This document shows positions 25,042-41,131 of a DNA stretch of 64,000 nt, piece after piece. Origin of the DNA: Acidobacteriota bacterium (GTDB lineage Bacteria; Acidobacteriota; Blastocatellia; UBA7656); the NCBI GenBank assembly GCA_040754075.1, contig JBFMDH010000031.1:1-64000 (forward strand), written 5' to 3'. The position numbers were made by a program, and so were the translations under genes. Under the pieces are notes generated by a model, which saw only the letters and a program-made list of their open reading frames with translations, was not told the DNA's origin and did no database searches. Position 1 is the stretch's first letter, and every line of letters begins with the position of its first letter.

Positions 25042-26376
25042 TTATTTGCTGCCTTTACCGGCGGGTTGCGGTTGTGTTTGTCGCAAATCCTGTTTATCGA
25101 TGGTGTAATCGAGATAGCCAATCATCATCTCTTCCCAGGTTTGATCGCCCCAACGCACCTCTTTGGTGGGGTCTGGGTTGTACTTGTTGTTAATCGAATT
25201 GTCGTGATGGGCGATGCATTCCAGACGACTGCCTTTCGGCGCGGCTACGGGTTCTTTAAAGAAATAGGTCAACTGCCAGGCGAAATGAAAACGCGGCACC
25301 GAAAGCAGAATCTTTGAGGTGCCATCGGGGTAGACCAAGCGATAGAGAAAATCTTTGCCGCGCACATGCATATGCGGGTGCAGGCTGTCGATGTGACTGT
25401 CTTCTTTAAAGGTGAAAGTGCCCGACGATTCATAATGCGGGTCGCCCGGCGGGATGACCAGATTGCGCGCCGAAGCGCCTGCCGTAATGACCCGTTTTTC
25501 AACCGGGACTTTTGAAAAAATCAAACCGACACTGGTGCGGTCTTTGCCCGCTTCGCCGTTGGTTGTGTAGTGCACCTGAAAAATCAGCACCGAACCTTTC
25601 TTGATTAACTTGGCTTGACCGGGGCGCATGATTTGCGGCGCTTCGCCGGGTGCCCACCCCACCAGACGACCATCGGAATCTTCGGCGCTGCGCGCCTGCG
25701 AGTTGGCATTTTGCGCGCGCGCTGCGGCAAGCGCCTGCGGGTTGATTTCACCGGCTTGGGGCAATGGGTTGCCATCGGGGTAACGAACACTGACGATGAC
25801 GTGATGCACATGGGCGCGGTCGCCCGAACGAATCTCGGCAAATTGCACATACTTGTCTTCGGCGAAATTGGTTGGCACCGCGAAATATTTATAGGGGATG
25901 ACGCCTTCGGCAGGAACCTGGAAATCCTGAGTCATGGTTAAAACGACGTCGGGATTACCGATTTGCCAGCCTGCGGTGAATTTCGGATTGGGCGGCAAAT
26001 CTTTCGGGTTGCCCTCTTTTGCGCCGCTGTCTGCCCACCTTGAAAGCGTATCAATATCTTTTTGCGACAATCGGCAATCATTGGAAAATTCACCGTGTTT
26101 GGGGTCGGCAAACCAGGGAGGCATTTCGCGGGTCACGACTTTTTCTTTAATCGAGCGCGCCCACGGTCGCGCCTCTTTGTAGGTCATAAATGACATGGGC
26201 GCGACTTCGCCCGGACGATGACAGACCTGACAGTTTTTTTGCAATATCGGCGCGACATCTTTGGTAAAGGTGACCACAGTTGGCATATCGATTGAAGCCT
26301 GAGTGGAATCAAGCGTCAGAAAGAGGAGCAATGCCAGGCAAGACACAAATAAGCAGATGCTAAGGACACGTTTCAT
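25042..26376 (-). CDS. Cytochrome c-dicopper monooxygenase fusion (PHM-like), paralog 2
   Basis: 444 residues with the same architecture as its downstream neighbour. The signal peptide is followed by heme motif C49-x2-C52-H53 ([15 protein letters not shown]), then the PHM-like pair of domains with H191-H192, H269 ([10 protein letters not shown]), H335-x-H337 (HPHMHVRGK) and M417 (WEEMM). It is shorter between the HH and HY motifs than paralog 1. GGAGG supports the start. It is the first gene of a minus-strand run, and a tandem duplication is the simplest origin of the pair. Confidence 0.85.
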
Positions 26377-32440: not shown

Positions 32441-32848
32441 ATGTGGAGTGAAGAACAACAACGAGAATTCAAAGAACGCATCGCGAAATTTTCTGACGAA
32501 GAACTGTTGCAAATCGTTTGCGAAGATTATGACGATTATCACGAAACCGCTTTGCAGATTGCCGAAGCCGAACTCAACCGGCGCGGTATCTATCTCGAAG
32601 ATGAGGAGTCGGCGGCAACGGCTGATGAGCAGACCGCTCGCGCAGCCAGGCTGAATGGGTCTCAGGCAAAGCCGCCGGCTTGCGCAGCGTGCGGCAGCGC
32701 AATGCGCCCTGCCTATTTATTTGCGGGCAAAGAAGTGACGGTTTTGTTCACAGACAATAACGAAGAGCGTTTCGTTGATGTGCTGGCTTGTGCGCGTTGC
32801 GGACAAATTAAACTGAGTGTAGATTACGCGACCGATGTTGAAGGTTGA
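32441..32848 (+). CDS. Small protein with C-terminal zinc ribbon
   Basis: 135 residues. The acidic helical N-terminal half (EEQQREFKERIAKFSDEELLQIV) includes AEAELNRRGI. The C-terminal half has two CxxC knuckles (CAACGSAM and CARCGQIK) that should bind zinc. AAGGAG precedes the start. The function is unknown. It may be co-transcribed with rsmE, 12 bp upstream, and lies 99 bp before the selenoprotein gene. Confidence 0.75.
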   Translation: MWSEEQQREFKERIAKFSDEELLQIVCEDYDDYHETALQIAEAELNRRGIYLEDEESAATADEQTARAARLNGSQAKPPACAACGSAMRPAYLFAGKEVTVLFTDNNEERFVDVLACARCGQIKLSVDYATDVEG

Positions 32849-32947
32849 AAATAATCAGTAACCCGACCGCAAGGAGCGCGCGGATTCAAATGCTCTGCCT
32901 CACGTTCGGACTACTGACAAAGATTTCGCAGTTTACCGGAGAAAGAA

Positions 32948-33562
32948 ATGCCCGATAACCAATTGCGCCAACCTAAAATTGGCGAACTCGCGCCCGATTT
33001 CACTTTGCCGGCAGTTGATGGCGATAGTGTCCATCTTGCAAATTATGCGAAGCCCGTAAGTCTGGTGTTTTTGCGCCATCTTGCTTGAGTGCTTTGAGCC
33101 GAGCATCTGGTGCAGTTGCATCAGCCCGATATACAACGAGAGTTGACGGAATTAAACGCGCAAATACTGGTAATTTCGTTTGCGCCTGTGAAAATTCTGA
33201 GCGATTGGCTGCCATATTTTCGCAAACATTTTCTGGAGCGGTTTTTTAAAGCCCAGCGCATTGAACGCCCTGCGGAATTTTTTCCGCAAATGCGTTTCTT
33301 GTCAGATGTGGAGCTTGCGGCTTATCACGCCTACGGGCTTGGCAGATTTTCCATCTGGCAAGCCTACGGGCCAAACATTATTCGCCGGTACATGAAATTT
33401 ATTTTTCAAGGCAAGTTGGGGCGTTTGCCCGATGGCGATACTTTGCAAAAAGGCGGCGATTTTGTGGTCAACCGCGAGGGACGTTTAACGCTTTCGCAGG
33501 TTGGCAATGACCAGAGCGAAAGACCGCCAATCGGCGATATTCTCGCGGCGCTCAAAAAATAA
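32948..33562 (+). CDS. Predicted UxxU selenoprotein, peroxiredoxin-like (SelL-related)
   Basis: 204 residues if both in-frame TGA codons (33086-33088 and 33095-33097) are read as selenocysteine, giving U47-V-L-U50. The N-terminus is a redoxin opening (IGELAPDFTLPAVDGDSVHL, SLVFLRHLA). After UxxU the fold continues in the same frame (EHLVQLHQ, ILVISFAPVKILSDWLPYF). Relatives have CxxC at exactly these positions. A hairpin with SECIS-like spacing follows. GGAGA precedes ATG 32948. It should act as a thiol/selenol oxidoreductase. A pseudogene would need two nonsense changes at just the two redox positions with no other damage. A disulfide reductase gene follows. Confidence 0.85.
33107..33124 (+). 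promoter_or_regulatory. Candidate bacterial SECIS hairpin
   Basis: CTGGTGC (33107-33113) pairs with GCATCAG (33118-33124) over 7 bp, including one G-U, around the loop AGTT. The conserved G is the second loop base, as expected for bacterial SECIS elements. There are 17 nt between the second TGA and that G, and 26 nt from the first TGA; both fit the accepted 16-37 nt range. One hairpin may serve both codons. Confidence 0.7.
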
Positions 33563-33710
33563 AAAGCTGATGGGACAGGCGAAATCAGCCAGGGGAGACT
33601 GTCAAATTCGGTTACGCAAAAAATGGGTTATGGTGTGGGGGCATCCGATGATGAAAGCTGTTGAGTTGCTGCATCCCTGCGCCCCTTAGCTAATGAACAG
33701 GAGCGGTTCA

Positions 33711-35135
33711 ATGAGTGAAAAATACGATCTGGCGATTATCGGCGCAGGTTCCGGCGGATTGACGGCGGCACAGGTTGGGGCGCAGGTTGGGGCACGGGTT
33801 GCCCTGATTGAAAAGCATCGCATCGGCGGCGATTGCACCTGGACGGGATGTGTGCCGAGTAAAGCCCTGCTCAAAGCCGCAAAGGTTGCGCAACAAACAC
33901 GCCTGGCTTCGCGCTTTGGTCTGACGGCGGCGCTGGAGCCGGTCAATCTCAAAGCGGTGATGGCTTATGTTCGCAGTTCGATTGCCGCAATTTATCAGCA
34001 CGAAGAACCCCGGACGTTGGGCGCTCAGGGCATCGATGTGGTGATGGGGCAAGCGCGGTTTGCAGACCCGCAGACGCTCGCCATTACGATGGCTGAAGGC
34101 GAAAAGCGAATCGTTGCAAAAAACATTCTCATCTGTGCAGGAGCGCGACCGCGATTGCCGCAAATCAGAGGCTTTTCCGAAGTGCCTTACCTGACCTATG
34201 AGACCATCTTCGAGATGGAAACCCTGCCGGAAAAATTTGTAGTGATGGGCGGTGGACCCGTCGGCATCGAAATGGCGCAAGCCTTTTTAAGACTGGGTTC
34301 CGATGTCACCCTTCTGCATTCCCGCCCGCGTTTGCTTCCTAAAGATGAACCGGAAGCCGCGGCGGTCTTAACCCGTTGTTTGCAAGCGGAGGGCGCCAAA
34401 CTTTTTCTCGATGCCAGAGTCTTTTCTGTCGCGCAAACTTCCTGTGGGATGACGCTACGCGCCAATGTCGGCGAATTCTGTTGCGACGCTTTACTGGTTG
34501 CCACCGGTCGCGCCCCCAATATTGATACGATGGCGTTGGAGAAAGCCGGTGTGCAGTTTAGCGAAAAGGGCATTCCGGTTGATGAAAATTTACAAACCAA
34601 TGTCAAGCATATTTATGCGGCGGGTGATTGTCTGGGCGGTCCGCAATTTACCCATTATGCCGCCTATCAGGCTTTTATTGCGGCGCGCAATGCGCTCTTT
34701 CCCGGTTCGTTAAAAGGGCTGGCGCAATCGGTTCCCTGGACAACCTTCACCGATCCCGAAATCGCTCACGCCGGATTGACGGAAGCTGAAGCGCGAGTCA
34801 AGTATGGCGACAACCTCGAGGCGCGGGTCGTCGAGATGGGGCGCGTTGACCGCGCCGTAACCGAAAGCGATACCTCAGGGTTTATCAAAGTCATTCATAA
34901 AAAAGATGGCACCGTGGTGGGCGCAACCGTTGTTGCCGAACGCGCCGGTGAAGTGATTCACGAATGGGCAATCGCCATCGCGCAAAACTGGAAGATCAGC
35001 GAACTCTCATCGATGATTCATGTTTATCCGACCTATTCAATTGCCAATCAGCAACTGGCTTCGGAATATTCGCTTGAACGATTTTTGCGCGGCTCGGCAG
35101 GGAAAATTTTGAAACGACTCAGTGGCTTGCGATAG
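33711..35135 (+). CDS. FAD-dependent pyridine nucleotide-disulfide oxidoreductase
   Basis: 474 residues, class I family (dihydrolipoyl dehydrogenase / mercuric reductase-like). The FAD loop is DLAIIGAGSGGLTAA, the redox disulfide is GGDCTWTGCVPSKAL, the NAD(P) loop VMGGGPVGIEMAQAF, and the second FAD motif IYAAGDCLG. The dimer-interface His lies in SMIHVYPTYSIANQQ, differing from the HPTLSE of lipoamide dehydrogenase. No N-terminal HMA domain or C-terminal Cys pair for mercury is present. ATG 33711 has AGGAG. It is 148 bp downstream of the selenoprotein and may reduce it (inference). Confidence 0.9.
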   Translation: MSEKYDLAIIGAGSGGLTAAQVGAQVGARVALIEKHRIGGDCTWTGCVPSKALLKAAKVAQQTRLASRFGLTAALEPVNLKAVMAYVRSSIAAIYQHEEPRTLGAQGIDVVMGQARFADPQTLAITMAEGEKRIVAKNILICAGARPRLPQIRGFSEVPYLTYETIFEMETLPEKFVVMGGGPVGIEMAQAFLRLGSDVTLLHSRPRLLPKDEPEAAAVLTRCLQAEGAKLFLDARVFSVAQTSCGMTLRANVGEFCCDALLVATGRAPNIDTMALEKAGVQFSEKGIPVDENLQTNVKHIYAAGDCLGGPQFTHYAAYQAFIAARNALFPGSLKGLAQSVPWTTFTDPEIAHAGLTEAEARVKYGDNLEARVVEMGRVDRAVTESDTSGFIKVIHKKDGTVVGATVVAERAGEVIHEWAIAIAQNWKISELSSMIHVYPTYSIANQQLASEYSLERFLRGSAGKILKRLSGLR

Positions 35136-39595: not shown

Positions 39596-41131
39596 CTAAT
39601 GCAAGGTGAAACCGTATTCCGCAGAACGCACCCCGTCGGTATTGAGCACAGTGATTTTTGCTGTTGTGCCGCGTGGCAAGAGCCTCTGCCAATCATCGCT
39701 TGAATAGAGATGTTTGCTGGCTTTCTTCGCCTTTTTGTGATTGCGCGTGTCTTTCACTCTGACGCCGTTGATTTCAATATCTGCGCCAATTAAAAAACCG
39801 CTGCCTGTAACAATCAAGCGATTGCTGCTCGCGTCAAATTCCACGCCGTTAATATGCGGCGACGACAGCGCCAGGTTATCCGAATCAAAGGTAAACAGGA
39901 CAAACGCGATAGCCATTTCATCGGTCGTCTGTTCGCCCCAGCGCACCGCTTTAGGCGGCGAATTGGGATTGAAAGGATTGTTCGCCGAATTATCAAAAAT
40001 CGCATTCAAGGTGAGCAGCGTCCCGCCTTTCAATGCGACAGGCTCTTTGTAGTAATACGCCCCCTGCCAGTTGAAATTCCAATCATCGATGTTAATCAAA
40101 CACTCAGTCCCGCCGATTGACCGCGCTTCGACTTTCATTTTTTTACCGAGCAAATGCATATGCGGAAAAATGCCGATGGCATGCGCGTCAAAACCCAGTG
40201 GAATAGGCAATGCGGCATTAACCGGATAGTTCGCATTATCGGCAGGGATGGTGAAATTGGTGTTAAGAATCGGCGCCCAATTTAACCCCTTGGTTACTGG
40301 CTTTCGGGAAAAATAGATGCCGATTTGCGTGCGGTCTTTTTCCGTGAGACCTCGCGGATGATAATGCACCTGCGCGACGATGCGCGAACCGGCTTTCACT
40401 TTATAAGCCACGCCATCAGGAACCAGGCGGGCGCGTTCGCCGGGCGCCCAACCGCCAAGCGTGCCGAATAAATCAAAGCCTGGCCCACCAAACGACGTAT
40501 AGCCGGGACCCGGGTCTTTGGCATCGAGGTCAACCGATGCGCCGGTTTCGTCTATGTACAAAATGACGTGATGGACAACGTTGCGATTGCCCGGTTTGAT
40601 GTCAACCGCTTGAACGAAGCGGTCGCCTTTCAAATTCGTCGGCATGGTAAAGCAGCGATAAATATCCCGCCCCGGCTCGACGGTGTAATCTTCATCGGGC
40701 GTGAGAATCATATCGGGTTCGCCAAGCGCCCAGTTGCTGCTGAAATCGAGCGGCGCAGGCAGCATCGCGGTATCGCCTTCGGGGGAGCCGTTTTCGACCC
40801 ATTGCGAAATTGTTGAAATCTCTTCATCCGTCAACACCCGCGCATCTTGAAATTCGCCGCAACCGGCAGTCGCTTTCCAGGGTGGCATCGAACGCATCAC
40901 CACGCGCTCTTGAATCGAACGCGCCCAGGGACGCGCTTCGCGATAGCTCATCAATGAAAACGGCGCGATGTCGCCCGGATGATGACAGACCTGACAATTA
41001 CGCTGAAAGATGCGCACCACTTCATTGCTGAAGGTCGGCGCGGCGCTTTGCGTTTTGCGTGTGTGGTTGTGCCCCGCGCCTATCGCAAGCAAGGCGACAG
41101 TAAGGAACATCAGAGCCAAGAGTTTTTTCAT
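39596..41131 (-). CDS. Cytochrome c-dicopper monooxygenase fusion with TIG tail, paralog 3
   Basis: 511 residues. A signal peptide precedes heme motif C46-x2-C49-H50 (CQVCHHPGDIAPFSL). The PHM-like domains keep H187-H188, H256 (VAQVHYHPRG), H324-x-H326 (FPHMHLLGK) and M405 (TTDEMAI). Unlike paralogs 1 and 2 it has a C-terminal IPT/TIG-like Ig domain of about 85 residues (SPHINGVEFDASSNRLIVTG). Predicted periplasmic or surface copper oxygenase with its own heme donor. GGGAG supports the start. It lies alone, divergent from an Asp-box protein. Confidence 0.85.
   Translation of the reverse strand: MKKLLALMFLTVALLAIGAGHNHTRKTQSAAPTFSNEVVRIFQRNCQVCHHPGDIAPFSLMSYREARPWARSIQERVVMRSMPPWKATAGCGEFQDARVLTDEEISTISQWVENGSPEGDTAMLPAPLDFSSNWALGEPDMILTPDEDYTVEPGRDIYRCFTMPTNLKGDRFVQAVDIKPGNRNVVHHVILYIDETGASVDLDAKDPGPGYTSFGGPGFDLFGTLGGWAPGERARLVPDGVAYKVKAGSRIVAQVHYHPRGLTEKDRTQIGIYFSRKPVTKGLNWAPILNTNFTIPADNANYPVNAALPIPLGFDAHAIGIFPHMHLLGKKMKVEARSIGGTECLINIDDWNFNWQGAYYYKEPVALKGGTLLTLNAIFDNSANNPFNPNSPPKAVRWGEQTTDEMAIAFVLFTFDSDNLALSSPHINGVEFDASSNRLIVTGSGFLIGADIEINGVRVKDTRNHKKAKKASKHLYSSDDWQRLLPRGTTAKITVLNTDGVRSAEYGFTLH

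Follow-up and report, generated by a model that had tools for sequence, protein, structure and literature searches.

An Acidobacteriota gene with two in-frame TGA codons is most likely a SelL-like selenoprotein gene of the UxxU type

Is a frame that seems to be broken twice by a stop codon a dead gene, an error of sequencing, or an intact gene whose TGAs are read as amino acids? The question is raised by a frame near the middle of the window, that is, the whole stretch of 64,000 nucleotides of Acidobacteriota DNA analysed here. The initial annotation had described an undamaged frame holding two TGAs, at residues 47 and 50; its coordinates, its frame and both TGA positions were all reproduced from the sequence and its translation (Table 1), and besides these two codons there is no further stop and no frameshift ahead of the terminal TAA. 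Our results indicate that this is most likely an undamaged gene for a redox protein, with selenocysteine (Sec, U) encoded by each of the TGAs. We hold with high confidence that the product is a SelL-like thioredoxin-fold selenoprotein with a UxxU motif and one SECIS for both UGAs, which would act as a diselenide-type oxidoreductase or in a peroxidase-like manner. When TGA is translated as Sec, its predicted active site reads FLRHLAUVLUAEH, with His-Leu-Ala-Sec-Val-Leu-Sec at its core.

Table 1. Positions in the window of the two-TGA gene, its predicted elements and the reductase gene downstream
Feature	Positions	Strand	Remarks
GGAG ribosome-binding site	32938..32941	+	6 nt upstream of the ATG; from sequence
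SelL-like two-Sec redox protein gene	32948..33562	+	204 residues + TAA; TGA translated as U
First TGA, predicted Sec47	33086..33088	+	first position of the relatives' CxxC
Second TGA, predicted Sec50	33095..33097	+	second position of the relatives' CxxC
SECIS-like hairpin, 7 bp	33107..33124	+	loop AGUU (33114-33117, G at 33115); from fold and covariation; probably common to both UGAs
First insert, residues 81-92	33188..33223	+	in this protein and that of G331; absent from the other nine alignment rows
Second insert, residues 109-116	33272..33295	+	in this protein and that of G331; absent from the other nine alignment rows
FAD-dependent pyridine nucleotide-disulfide oxidoreductase gene (MerA/lipoamide dehydrogenase-like)	33693-35135	+	130 bp further downstream, on the strand of the two-Sec gene

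Recurrence of the two codons and the coding capacity of the genome

Under the standard code the two TGAs are in-frame stops, as they would be in a dead or misassembled gene. However, six other genomes also have TGA at both of these codons, which puts the double TGA beyond chance. Three of these genomes belong to the same family (G331, whose protein is 58% identical, G397 and G398), and three are more distant members of the same phylum (G008, G172 and G148). A pseudogene or sequencing error is refuted by this recurrence and is rejected here as extremely unlikely; the lack of any other stop or frameshift, the purifying selection upstream as well as downstream of the TGAs and the Sec machinery of the genome, described below, argue against it as well. 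The remaining relatives carry UxxC in 24 cases, CxxC in 44 and UxxP in one. Nearly all of the CxxC relatives stem from a scan of named genomes, which returned only Cys at the first position because its pattern fixed Cys there; the second position was left free, yet it was always Cys. The columns aligned with the two TGAs thus hold CxxC, UxxC or UxxU among homologues, in keeping with the initial annotation, and relatives with random stops were not found, with the exception of a single TAG. This TAG lies, besides a TGA, in the frame of a SelL-like relative with the motif UIFC (L152 in G385), which is possibly decaying or affected by a sequencing error. In another SelL-like relative, that with UxxP (L047 in G038), Pro occupies the second motif position, and the protein is therefore without the second redox residue. 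As for the origin of UxxU, the tree favours three changes without rejecting a single clade (AU p 0.246). An Acidobacteria record, L064, clusters in this tree with the rows of the same phylum.

Comparison with G331 suggests that purifying selection acts on both flanks of the TGAs, with dN/dS of ~0.17 on the 5' side and ~0.12 on the 3' side, figures that are rough because synonymous sites are close to saturation. This bears on a further explanation, according to which the gene is what a standard gene caller would predict, namely a shorter protein of 150 residues from an internal GTG at 33110, the part 5' of the TGAs being untranslated. The frame 33110-33562 is indeed open and has this GTG as a start. 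However, the fold of its product would lose its first strands together with the active site; residues 1-46, which share 70% identity with G331, fall in the 5' flank whose dN/dS is given above; and the ATG at 32948 is preceded by a good ribosome-binding site. In the light of the conserved N-terminal part and this ribosome-binding site, we reject the internal start as most improbable.

A check of the rest of the genome for the Sec machinery found all of it: tRNA-Sec, selA, selB and selD are above their cut-offs in this assembly (7.58 Mb, rated 100% complete), and selB and tRNA-Sec are above theirs in 7/7 genomes of the window's family. The selD gene itself has an in-frame TGA (SCAGUAAK; L019). 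Could TGA instead have been reassigned to an ordinary amino acid throughout the genome? Nothing speaks for such a code change except the in-frame TGAs, and it is contradicted by the neighbouring gene at 32441-32848, which uses TGA as a normal stop, and by the genome's other in-frame TGAs found, which sit at catalytic Cys/Sec positions; we regard it as vanishingly unlikely and reject it.

The genome also holds another SelL-like gene, in which a single TGA gives the motif UIFC (L106, G000:C2:130910-131332), and 3' of that TGA lies a 7-bp hairpin, GCGUAAA-GGA-UUUACGC. Further redox genes with TGA in place of a Cys codon encode a BCP-type peroxiredoxin (TPGU), a WUGC redoxin and an AhpC-like protein with UPYC (L161, L162 and L113).

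A hairpin shared by two UGAs

The hairpin and the distances given in the initial annotation proved correct: the G of the loop lies 26 nt after the first TGA and 17 nt after the second, so that one hairpin would be able to serve both UGAs. The element, CUGGUGC-AGUU-GCAUCAG, belongs to the minimum-energy fold. On its own it is not significant, as it is matched by 4-10% of synonymous recodings and has an RNA fold z-score of -0.77; because the hairpin is weak when it stands alone, the case for it rests on covariation. Among the 22 Sec-type relatives that share its register, 93.5% of the cells are paired versus 73.6% in shuffles, changes on both sides of the stem occur in 29 cells versus 9.7 in shuffles, covariation is seen at five of the seven pairs, and sliding the stem to other positions yields nothing comparable. 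It is this covariation across relatives that lifts the hairpin beyond chance, and the claim that it fits a bacterial SECIS is borne out insofar as a hairpin with a loop G downstream of the UGAs has been kept by compensatory changes. In the seven UxxU sequences alone pairing reaches 98%, and several Sec relatives in other registers have a hairpin at almost the same place. An Rfam search of the window returned no match.

The synonymous-recoding test separates the forms in a similar way, with Fisher p values of 7e-5 for UxxU and 2e-6 for UxxC and of 0.85 for the CxxC relatives, which lack the hairpin and show no excess over synonymous recoding; these p values are too sharp because the sequences are related. 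A strict independent-pairs test of the hairpin against Sec points in the same direction, but is underpowered. In stem and loop the hairpin resembles the upper stem-loop of Escherichia coli fdhF, the sequence of which was confirmed. By direct count, the second UGA stands at about the fdhF spacing and the first at the spacing seen in UxxC relatives.

These spacings also bear on a reading in which, for most molecules, Sec is inserted at just one of the two UGAs and the other acts as a stop or is decoded by a different tRNA, the main product being truncated or having one Sec. Such a reading would suit a single hairpin at unequal distances from its two UGAs, and one-Sec relatives with a hairpin at the first-UGA distance do exist. 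However, both spacings fall inside the range of bacterial SECIS elements, with the second near that of fdhF; a stop at either UGA would cost most of a conserved protein; and four genomes of one family keep UxxU. We consider the reading with one Sec very unlikely, and prefer Sec at both positions.

Fold, family and known UxxU proteins

The N-terminal part of the protein matches the Pfam family AhpC-TSA (1.3e-7), and the AlphaFold model, with a mean pLDDT of 93.6, confidently predicts a peroxiredoxin/thioredoxin fold in which residue 47 directly precedes the active-site helix (48-57). The best solved folds are those of Bcp4, Bcp1, AhpE and 2-Cys peroxiredoxins, with PDB matches up to Z 18.9. BCP/AhpE and 2-Cys peroxiredoxins (3hjp, 3drn and 4x0x) have the same fold, with VIA-align Z of 17-19, as does the human prostamide/prostaglandin F synthase of the CxxC type (9usa; Z 16.9). 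The active site differs from that of these peroxiredoxins: the signature PxxxT(S/T)xxC is absent, the site FLRHLAUVLU carrying neither Pro nor Thr where the signature requires them. Inspection alongside the BCP gene of the same genome (TPGU) places Sec50 at the peroxidatic position, at which that gene has its catalytic Sec, and Sec47 at the peroxiredoxin Thr, and hence the classical signature is missing. The label "peroxiredoxin-like" in the initial annotation is therefore valid for the fold, but not for the active site.

The best NCBIfam model is NF040769, SelL-related redox protein (SelL_rel_redox; E 1.3e-30), which matches on both sides of the two inserts and is the closest curated family. 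However, the score of 106.3 bits is just under the curated cut-off of 120, as is that of G331 (117.1 bits), and for this reason we name the protein SelL-like rather than a member of NF040769; the UxxU proteins of G008, G172 and G148 score 153.9-182.6 bits. Likeness to SelL lies in the peroxiredoxin/thioredoxin-like fold, in UxxU at the position of CxxC and in one predicted SECIS for two Sec, and was drawn from motif, fold and SECIS rather than from sequence alignment. The protein departs from SelL in its two inserts, and its host is not known as marine. The 2007 SelL paper by Shchedrina and colleagues reportedly described bacterial SelL genes in which a single SECIS in the coding region is so placed that it serves both Sec.

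According to the SelL literature, one SECIS directs the insertion of both Sec, a diselenide bond joins them, and the protein is known from marine bacteria as well as from fish and invertebrates (PMC2397514, PMC3316567); one of these papers describes SelL as confined to marine bacteria and animals that live in water (PMC2397514). Reviews list a Prx-like thiol:disulfide oxidoreductase with UxxC/UxxU (PMC9312934, PMC13188914), and Prx-like 2 sequences with UxxU were seen in ocean metagenomes (PMC2398784); going by their descriptions, these have the AhpC-TSA type domain and UxxC/UxxU in common with our protein. Because UxxU SelL proteins in bacteria are already known, the gene is a new, somewhat divergent example of the SelL type and not a new system. 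Natural UxxU proteins are nevertheless rare, and here the UxxU, UxxC and CxxC forms coexist in one phylum with the SECIS at the same place, which opens to direct testing both the gain of a second Sec and the way in which one bacterial SECIS serves two UGAs. Gene callers that use the standard code would truncate the two-Sec gene and its relatives.

Proposed mechanism and genomic surroundings

The scheme that we propose starts from what was observed or computed (the frame and its conservation, the Sec machinery, the covariation of the hairpin and the predicted fold), to which it would add Sec incorporation at both positions, a diselenide, catalysis, a substrate and a reductant. SelB with Sec-tRNA would bind the single in-frame hairpin and, from there, recode the UGA at 33086 and then that at 33095. 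The protein may work as an oxidoreductase of the dithiol/disulfide type or as a peroxidase-like reductase, cycling between two selenols and an Se-Se bond, and its oxidised form might be re-reduced by the thioredoxin system of the cell or a similar reductase. We speculate that UxxU arose by a single base change in the second Cys codon, from TGC to TGA, under a pre-existing SECIS; this change alone could suffice because the hairpin lies at the same place in many UxxC relatives.

It would be tempting to picture a distinct SelL-like clade of four genomes in three genera in which UxxU, with one in-frame SECIS recoding two UGAs, has become fixed, and whose protein in the window's organism is reduced by the FAD-dependent reductase encoded just downstream, acting as a diselenide reductase, but we consider this unlikely. 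A homologue of the reductase (39% identity) lies ~75 bp upstream of the CxxC relative in L064; however, no such gene turned up close to 15 other relatives or in the regions that flank the remaining 43 named loci, and the G331 contig ends too early to show whether one is present. The reductase is thus unproven as a conserved partner, and the neighbourhoods of the relatives show no conserved partner beside the gene, whether reductase or substrate.

A plasmid search gave no match. The upstream neighbours prmA and rsmE are common to G331 only, in what looks like housekeeping synteny. Elsewhere in the window, two genes on the minus strand (25042-26376 and 39596-41131) encode proteins that are alike in their N-terminal parts, each with a CxxCH motif (NCQVCHRPG and NCQVCHHPG) as in cytochrome-type heme-binding sites.
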